A DNA stretch of 64,000 bases from Desulfomonile tiedjei DSM 6799 (GTDB lineage: Bacteria > Desulfobacterota > Desulfomonilia > Desulfomonilales > Desulfomonilaceae), in NCBI RefSeq assembly GCF_000266945.1, contig NC_018025.1:5398001-5462000 (forward strand), written 5' to 3'. Made by a program: the position numbers and the translations under genes. Under the pieces are notes generated by a model. That model was not told the origin of the DNA. It ran no database searches and saw only the letters and a list, made by a program, of their open reading frames with translations. Shown here piece after piece: positions 22,995 through 58,853 of the stretch (its first letter is position 1; every line of letters begins with the position of its first letter).

Positions 22995-23240
22995 CGGGCA
23001 TTAGGGAGTTCTGCGCCCTGGAAGGGCGGCTCAATACTAGCCACGGGTGTCAACCCGTGGACAGCGCCAAGTCCATGAGTATGGTTCAACGACCCTGAAA
23101 GGGTCGACCAAAAGGCAATGATTTCCAAATCCATTGGTGGACCCTTTCAGGGTCTTGAAGGCAAAAGACTTCCCGTCGCTTCCGTGGGTTTGCACCCACG
23201 GCTACTATTGGGTAGCCCCTGTGGGGCTGCAGAAACCTTT
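22995..23240. repeat. Multi-hairpin repeat, family R5 (copy 1)
   Basis: A chain of short hairpins: CCACGGGTGTCAACCCGTGG, GACCCTGAAAGGGTC, GGACCCTTTCAGGGTC, CGTGGGTTTGCACCCACGG and GCCCCTGTGGGGC. The same kinds of hairpin in the same order occur at 57903-58145. Confidence 0.7.
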
Positions 23241-57902: not shown

Positions 57903-58145
57903 TGACCGGAGCCCTAGTGGGGCGATCCAAAGGTAGCCATGGGTGCAACCCATGGAGAGAATTATAGCAAAACCAAGCAATGAGGACCCTGGCGGGGTCC
58001 ACTATTGTTGAATTTGAACTCAGATGGATCCAATGGCGGACCCTTTCAGGGTCAGAGCCCTTATAATGTGGTGCCGCTGCCCACGGGTTTGCACCCGTGG
58101 CTATTCATGGTTCGTCCCTTTGGGACTCTCGAGCCTTGAGCCGAG
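57903..58145. repeat. Multi-hairpin repeat, family R5 (copy 2)
   Basis: Hairpins CCATGGGTGCAACCCATGG, GGACCCTGGCGGGGTCC, GGACCCTTTCAGGGTC, CCACGGGTTTGCACCCGTGG and GTCCCTTTGGGAC follow in the order seen at 22995-23240. It fills the gene-free stretch 57803-58262. Confidence 0.7.
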
Positions 58146-58262: not shown

Positions 58263-58724
58263 CTATACCCGCGATTTGAATGCTGCTGCAGATGCGGCAG
58301 CCTGACTTCTGGGGTATTCGCTCAAGAGTTTCTGGAGAAAGAACCGTGCTTTGGGTTTGCGACCCTGAGCGATAAAGGCTTTGACATTCCCCAACATGAG
58401 AGCTGGTATGAATTCTTCCGGCGGCAGAAATCCCACAGTTCGATCTTGTTCTCTGCCTTCTTCATCCAGCGTGAGTACAGAAGGTGTGTACTGAATTACA
58501 AAGCGGCTTGCCCAAGGTGGAGCGGAGGAGACATTTACTCGAAGGGGGATCATGAAATCGTGGACAAATGCAACAGTTCGCGAATTGGAATACGTAACCG
58601 CATCCAGTTGTTTGCACGCGCCTCAACCGGGATTGAAAAAGTCGAGGAGTACGTTTTTCTCCTGGACTCTGGCCATGGACAGCGCCATTTCAAAATCGTT
58701 TTCCCATCGAATGCGTGTTTCCAT
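58263..58724 (-). CDS. Thioredoxin-like protein with in-frame UGA, probable selenoprotein (UxxC)
   Basis: From ATG 58724 (GGGGAG ten bases upstream) the frame reads METRIRWENDFEMAL..., then VLLDFFNPG, then TGA at 58623-58625 as codon 34, then GACKQLDAVTYSNSRTVAF... and runs on in the same frame to 58263. The result is a 153-residue thioredoxin-like protein with UGAC, a UxxC version of the CxxC redox site, in the correct place after the first strand. C-terminal features FVIQYTPSVLTLDEEG and FLPPEEF are as in thioredoxin folds (cis-Pro in YTPS), followed by a helical tail. A standard gene call would begin at Met58 and lose the active site. Reading UGA as selenocysteine is an inference; a nonsense mutation is the alternative. 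Confidence 0.8.
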
Positions 58725-58853
58725 TGTGATGATCTCCCCAACTCTGGACAAATCCTAATATTGTGAAGCAAAGGCGAAACACTCTCTTGTAGGAAGTGGT
58801 TTACCATTCTTTTTCGCCCAGTTCCTTCTTTGTTCATGAGACCGCATACGGAA

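Follow-up and report, generated by a model that had tools for sequence, protein, structure and literature searches.

Thioredoxins of the DsbD-gamma and DsbH types carry a CxxC active site and are exported or membrane-tethered. Researchers have counted 119 families or subfamilies of prokaryotic selenoproteins, one of which is a "thiol:disulfide interchange protein" with the Pfam domain PF13098, a UxxC motif, and the representative WP_011366075.1 (PMC13188914), and a selenoprotein of this name was reported from Syntrophus aciditrophicus, Geobacter metallireducens, and G. uraniumreducens (PMC1794560). The same catalogue describes the geometry of the bacterial SECIS (bSECIS) as a loop of 3-9 nt, a stem of at least 4 pairs, a G in the first two loop positions, and a loop lying 16-37 nt after the UGA, and its model sets -7.5 kcal/mol as the upper limit of the minimum free energy (PMC13188914); in the E. 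coli-type element, the loop bases G23 and U24 are fixed and a bulged U17 in the stem is required (PMC8659212). Two other reports are also relevant: selC* tRNA-Cys, some with a UCA anticodon, occur with a second selB in an arrangement known in deltaproteobacteria (PMC7609411), and CnoX joins a thioredoxin domain and a TPR tail in one chain (PMC6282202).

The gene discussed here lies at 58263..58724 on the minus strand of the window (the whole stretch of 64,000 nucleotides of Desulfomonile tiedjei DSM 6799 DNA that was analysed), and it is almost certainly a UxxC selenoprotein gene, in which UGA at codon 34 would be read as selenocysteine (Sec) with the help of a hairpin acting through SelB, and whose product would be a thioredoxin-fold oxidoreductase with TPR-like helices. 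The initial annotation had proposed a UxxC selenoprotein at this place, and this reading is supported by the conserved TGA, the Cys homologues, the covarying hairpin, and the Sec machinery; only the SECIS stem it had suggested was wrong. From 58724 to 58263, a single frame of 153 codons runs to a terminal TAG and contains one TGA only, at codon 34 (58623..58625), exactly as had been claimed. The translation around codon 34 is METRIRWENDFEMALSMARVQEKNVLLDFFNPG-U-GACKQLDA, with the active site FFNPG-U-GAC and the UxxC motif UGAC; the TGA, which aligns with TGA in relatives, occupies position 1 of this motif, and the second, presumably resolving Cys is encoded by TGC at codon 37 (58614..58616), which is invariant in alignment A1, built from 27 of the first 30 loci. 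When the TGA is read as Cys, Thioredoxin_2 spans codon 34 (residues 21-109, 39.5 bits, cut-off 27) and Thioredoxin_7 also matches (38.8 bits, cut-off 27), in agreement with the earlier view that the residues flanking the TGA belong to one thioredoxin-like domain, which we place at residues ~4-109. The start codon also agrees with what had been noted, as the ATG at 58724 is preceded at 10-15 nt by GGGGAG (58734..58739, minus strand), a likely ribosome-binding site, and no such site precedes Met58. When the window gene was compared with L014, L015, L016, L018, L017, and L054, codon positions 1 and 2 were better conserved than position 3 on both sides of the TGA in all six cases, and both sides can therefore be regarded as coding.

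The predicted model of the protein (Cys for Sec) has a pLDDT of 92.8 and a pTM of 0.88, and it places a strand at residues 24-30, codon 34 just before a helix at 35-44, and C-terminal helices at 102-119, 123-136, and 141-152, which make up the TPR-like part of the chain (residues ~102-152). The top solved folds were of the DsbD-gamma/DsbH types, with 1uc7 at Foldseek rank 1, and VIA-align 2 gave 3f9u (Z 15.2, rmsd 2.1, 120 aligned) and 2ju5 (Z 14.3). Thr80-Pro81, which we take to be the usual cis-proline site of thioredoxins, is invariant in alignment A1, and no signal peptide was visible by eye in the window protein. We conclude from the model that the protein would consist of a DsbD-gamma-like thioredoxin domain followed by a TPR-like helical hairpin, and this architecture suggests a role of the tail in client choice. 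A narrower form of our best explanation is that the protein is a selenium chaperedoxin whose TPR tail would hold unfolding clients, similar to CnoX (YbbN), which is characterised by a holdase activity and by the transfer of clients to DnaK and GroEL. By analogy, such a role is possible, given that a thioredoxin domain is followed by TPR-like repeats in one chain, that TPR_6 is over the cut-off in the paralogue L054 of the same genome (30.0 vs 26.3) and is matched by 18 of the 27 members at E 0.001, and that E. coli YbbN (3qou) appears at Foldseek rank 11. However, the best-ranked folds for the thioredoxin domain are of the DsbD-gamma/DsbH types, the tail is short, and TPR_6 in the window protein stays below the cut-off (19.1 vs 26.3), and we consider this narrower form unlikely.

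The broader reading as a UxxC selenoprotein depends on a Sec machinery in the genome, as the initial annotation had pointed out, and selA, selB, selD, and a tRNA-Sec(UCA) are all present. The genome of D. tiedjei (6.5 Mb, two contigs) has one selA (599 bits), a selB of 404 bits and a second selB of 291 bits, a selD with one in-frame TGA (C1:3873142-3874065), and a tRNA-Sec with the anticodon TCA (UCA; 69.5 bits). Among the 198 relatives, selA was found in 180 (178 over cut-off). The 47 best matches to the window gene come from 37 genomes, 33 of which have selA over the cut-off, as judged from E-values; G189 has a partial selA match, and G046, G082, and G117, which are of one genus and 62-79% complete, have no selA match, with selB over the cut-off in G046 and G117 and none in G082. 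The genomes without any selA match number 18, too few for a strong co-occurrence test, and 15 of them have none of the 47 matches.

The second selB lies ~130 nt downstream of a tRNA-Sec-like gene, which recalls the selC* tRNA-Cys described with a second selB, some of them with UCA, and it might be supposed that UGA is read as Cys by such a tRNA-Cys and its own SelB. However, the tRNA-Sec-like gene of this genome has the anticodon GCA, which cannot pair with UGA, among the tRNAs examined the UCA anticodon belongs to the tRNA-Sec, selA is intact, and selD with its in-frame TGA is present, which makes this reading very improbable. Sec is the expected reading of UGA in this genome on sequence grounds, because the selC*-like anticodon GCA cannot read UGA. 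The selC*/selB* arrangement itself comprises the tRNA-Sec-like gene (L044 1501-1588; anticodon GCA, with U before CCA) and a second full-length selB (L002, C1:3562734-3564838).

A homologue at E <=0.001 was found in 107 of 198 related genomes. The 47 best matches (the window gene and 46 others), which reach down to 66 bits and include the long paralogue of the same genome, contain exactly one TGA each, and in 47 of 47 it stands at the aligned codon, position 1 of UxxC. A second scan covered named genomes, partly the same as those of the first search, with a query alignment (A2, 26 of 47) that begins after the TGA codon. Of the 139 relatives it gave, the best 80 were retained, and every one of these 80 loci has TGA at the aligned codon, 79 as parsed and the 80th, L170, after its position was corrected; a third alignment, A3, holds 39 of 80 candidate rows. 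According to the record titles, the loci of the second scan are mostly from Deltaproteobacteria/Desulfobacterota, including Geobacter sp. AOG1 and Geomobilimonas luticola, and some metagenome-assembled genomes (MAGs) are labelled Nitrospirota, Nitrospinota, Planctomycetota, or Bacillota, labels which may be misassigned. Different in-frame stops or random residues at this codon in relatives had been named in the initial annotation as evidence against Sec; instead, the close relatives examined carry TGA, in line with its argument that a TGA falling on the first active-site Cys is not a random nonsense mutation, and seven full-length matches without a stop carry TGC.

Below the best 47, 10 weaker TGA-bearing matches were listed, of which nine were inspected by eye and rejected, and G127:C38 was left out. 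L076, L078, L079, L081, L082, L083, and L084 appeared to be readthroughs near terminal stops, and L077 and L080, joined later by L183, belonged to a different UxxC family. This other thioredoxin-like family, in which a leader was recognised by eye, has WUTFC, WUTYC, or WUAFC around the active-site in-frame TGA; the best Pfam match of L077 is Thioredoxin_2 (59 bits), and this family, too, could correspond to the catalogued PF13098 selenoprotein.

Covariation, geometry, and loop conservation indicate that the hairpin GGAUGCG-GUUA-CGUAUUC at 58605-58588 on the minus strand is likely the SECIS. In the window gene, the stem GGAUGC/GUAUUC has 6 pairs (a seventh is possible) and an apical loop with GU (58597..58598, minus strand); the hairpin begins 17 nt after the UGA and the loop lies ~24 nt after it. 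The family consensus is GGAUGCG-GUUA-CGUAUCC, also from 17 nt past the UGA, and all 117 non-identical members, among them the window gene, form the hairpin with a G in the first two loop positions. The window gene has the loop size, stem length, loop G, and spacing of the bSECIS geometry; its local hairpin folds at a modest -6.7 kcal/mol, compared with the -7.5 or lower of the model, and the 60-nt stretch at -14.7 kcal/mol, and the 70-nt region is no more stable than its own shuffles (z 0.23). The Rfam matches at E <=1 for 9 loci did not include a SECIS family, which is weak as evidence. The stem put forward in the initial annotation (CGU with ACG and AAC with GUU) proved not to be conserved: two of its six pairs are formed in 5 and 9 rows out of 115 and the other four in 79-112 rows, which gives 61% of cells paired versus 92% for the conserved hairpin.

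Pairs were counted in 115 distinct rows (48 nt) or 116 (66 nt). In the 115 rows, the 92% of paired stem cells were accompanied by double changes in 20 cells at 4 of the 7 stem pairs, and 0 of 1000 shuffles reached as high in either respect, tests which the relatedness of the rows makes generous. When the partners were shifted as a slide control, 21-71% of cells paired; the 71% was reached at shift -2, where the 33 double-change cells are confined to a single pair, namely the loop pair, and shift +3 gave 17 double-change cells at 3 pairs. Some of the double changes alter two amino acids, as in MEAVTFP (A-U for U-A) and MNTGPYS (GAAUACG/CGUAUUC). Two stem pairs are broken in four distinct rows with GGACGCGGUCGCGUACCC, which may use a shifted hairpin. 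Among 10 further Sec members, seven form the hairpin and three deep ones (L177, L178, and L186) lack it; by eye, an alternative hairpin with GG in the loop, nearer the UGA, is possible in these three. A UGA + hairpin pattern built from the family occurred at two places in the genome of D. tiedjei, the window gene and the long paralogue, and at 0 in the control. The peptide pattern of the second scan, QM[DG]AVTYP, covers the hairpin, so the pattern itself accounts for part of the stem conservation in those 80 loci; the third-position and synonymous tests are unaffected by this pattern.

These synonymous tests used 117 of 126 sequences, rows identical around the codon being removed and L170 left out. 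For Thr44 the codon ACG is used in 108 of 108 cases, compared with 24% in the remainder of these genes (p 8e-67); for Val43, GTT or GTC is used in 102 of 114, compared with 55%. The first loop base is G in 115 of 115 distinct rows, and the base after it is U in 112 rows, with G in the remaining 3. The loop GU is flanked by the third positions of codons 42 and 43 (58599/58596 in the window gene), which make a standard base pair in every one of the 116 rows (A-U 48, G-U 34, G-C 23, C-G 10, U-A 1), including 110 of 110 among the rows with Ala and Val codons. The mutual information of this pair, 0.70, ranks first of 210 third-position pairs, with the next at 0.19, and 0 of 10000 shuffles gave pairing as high.

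It is also conceivable that the UGA terminates by design and that a downstream ATG yields a separate 96-residue protein, as the mechanical open reading frame does start at Met58. However, besides the missing ribosome site at Met58, such a truncation would split the thioredoxin domain of the predicted model between the strand and the active-site helix, and the upstream peptide is kept in frame, which together leave this reading extremely unlikely. If relatives were disregarded, a lone in-frame stop would resemble a pseudogene or sequencing error, with an ordinary CxxC thioredoxin gene interrupted by a nonsense TGA. The probability of this reading is negligible, and the sequences already refute it: all 46 other close matches and all 80 loci of the second scan have TGA at the same codon, both sides of the TGA are under coding constraint, and the hairpin downstream of it covaries.

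The reading of codon 34 as Sec is further consistent with an exchange between Sec and Cys. In 297 genomes of the phylum, a sample which overlaps the related set of 198, 63 matches reached 130 bits or more (counted by hand). Of these, 56 contain one TGA and 7 have no stop, and 7 of 7 of the latter, which are more distant homologues, have TGC at the Sec site; the initial annotation had recommended aligning the product with proteins that have Cys at position 34. Ser replaces the second Cys in the TGC forms L070, L172, L174, and L175, and the weaker L173 (120 bits, no stop) has no Cys at the Sec site. In a tree of 64 proteins (the 47 best matches and 17 of 39 further fetched loci), the TGC form L171 is nested within a clade of TGA orthologues of one family (support 100/99 with L181), a position which indicates that a Sec-to-Cys replacement has probably occurred. 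L171 is without the hairpin, which the TGA-bearing sisters L181 and L182 have retained with seven pairs.

The predominant subfamily is a long UIGC form of ~189 aa. The window gene falls in a clade of five short members (L013, L014, L015, L016, and L018; 153-159 aa; support 100/100) with the motif UGAC, or UPAC in L018, and all five genomes are of the Desulfomonilaceae, the family of the window. Genomes of this family also contain L055, L060, and L061, which have an N-terminal leader by eye and the motifs UMGC, UTGC, and ULGC. The long UIGC paralogue of D. tiedjei is found at L054 2279-2848 (C1, ~3240778-3241347) with the same UGA and hairpin, and a transposase-like gene, named by eye, is located near it at L054 435-1874. 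No conserved operon or partner was found within <=3 kb of the 80 loci and the window gene, where the most frequent neighbour cluster is shared by 9 of the 80 loci and the window, in varying place and strand, and no conserved neighbour of the window gene indicates a pathway. Promoter and terminator scans gave no more than chance. Elsewhere in the window, the palindromic repeat AGCCACGGGTGCAAACCCGTGG has two copies, at 58081-58102 (-) and 23039-23060 (+), with 0 and 2 mismatches (0 expected), and the copy at 58081-58102 lies inside a sub-threshold Rfam match to Acido-Lenti-1 (~58081-58127, 31.7 bits, gathering 37).

We propose that the UGA at codon 34 would be decoded as Sec by the tRNA-Sec(UCA) delivered by SelB, which would recognise the hairpin 17 nt downstream of the UGA through its exposed loop GU. 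The product would be a cytoplasmic thioredoxin-fold thiol-disulfide oxidoreductase (its N-terminus judged by eye) with the site Sec34-Gly-Ala-Cys37, in which Sec34 would most likely attack a substrate disulfide or an oxidised thiol (sulfenate), Cys37 would resolve the mixed selenyl-sulfide, and the helical tail may help to select the client. Gene finders which treat every UGA as a stop would annotate this gene as a fragment. For three proteins of the family, the window protein, L155, and L092, no listed NCBIfam model was over its cut-off, so automatic naming probably misses the family, and the family alignment can seed an annotation model. In this one family, the recoded codon, the RNA hairpin, and the Sec-to-Cys exchange are all readable from sequence, and the covariation at the SECIS loop gives a testable rule for SelB recognition in Desulfobacterota.

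Among the described systems, the catalogued PF13098 UxxC family is similar in that the window protein has Thioredoxin_2 (PF13098) over the cut-off together with UxxC, and in that the long form was found in records titled Syntrophaceae and Geobacter. In Geobacter sp. AOG1, one of eight PF13098 matches carries TGA, and it belongs to the thioredoxin-TPR (Trx-TPR) family. The long form is probably the catalogued "thiol:disulfide interchange protein", to which we liken it by Pfam domain, motif, and taxa rather than by the representative's sequence, and the wide Desulfobacterota family may be the same entry. Other candidates for this entry exist, because further TGA-bearing PF13098 matches are found in Geomobilimonas luticola (3 of 12) and G329 (2 of 11). 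No Trx-TPR selenoprotein was found in the titles and abstract beginnings of the literature searched, and the short UGAC/UPAC clade was likewise not found described in the literature consulted. The window gene would thus add a member to a known kind, with a short clade that is apparently undescribed in the literature searched, and it differs from the catalogued-type long UIGC form in having ~35 fewer C-terminal residues. It seems doubtful to us that Trx-TPR is instead a separate, uncatalogued selenoprotein family of Desulfobacterota and some other phyla, namely a selenium chaperedoxin of anaerobes, with the short UGAC/UPAC clade as a specialisation of the Desulfomonilaceae and the covarying SECIS loop as a report of SelB reading.

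The NCBIfam selenoprotein models TsoB, VPGUxxT type 2, and Trx7/PDZ have a Thioredoxin_2/7-like domain in common with the window protein, but it scores 42.3, 22.5, and 13.3 bits against them, far under their cut-offs of 805, 275, and 300, and for the classical thioredoxin TIGR01068 it scores 33.9 bits vs the equivalog cut-off of 96.8. The fold is like that of the DsbD C-terminal (gamma) domain and of DsbH-type thioredoxins, from which the window protein differs as a free-standing chain with no visible signal peptide, with Sec, and with TPR-like helices. Like CnoX (YbbN), it would combine a thioredoxin domain and a TPR-like tail in one chain, but its thioredoxin domain is of another subfamily by profile and fold rank, its tail is shorter, and it would have Sec for Cys/Ser. 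The proposed SECIS resembles the E. coli-type bacterial element in being a hairpin just after the UGA with a fixed G and U in the loop, and it differs in that the bulged U17 required there has no visible counterpart in the hairpin of this gene family. The bases flanking the GU of the E. coli SECIS loop pair with each other, and the family of the window gene is characterised by a stem of 6-7 pairs from 17 nt after the UGA and by a loop GU that is closed by a covarying third-position pair.
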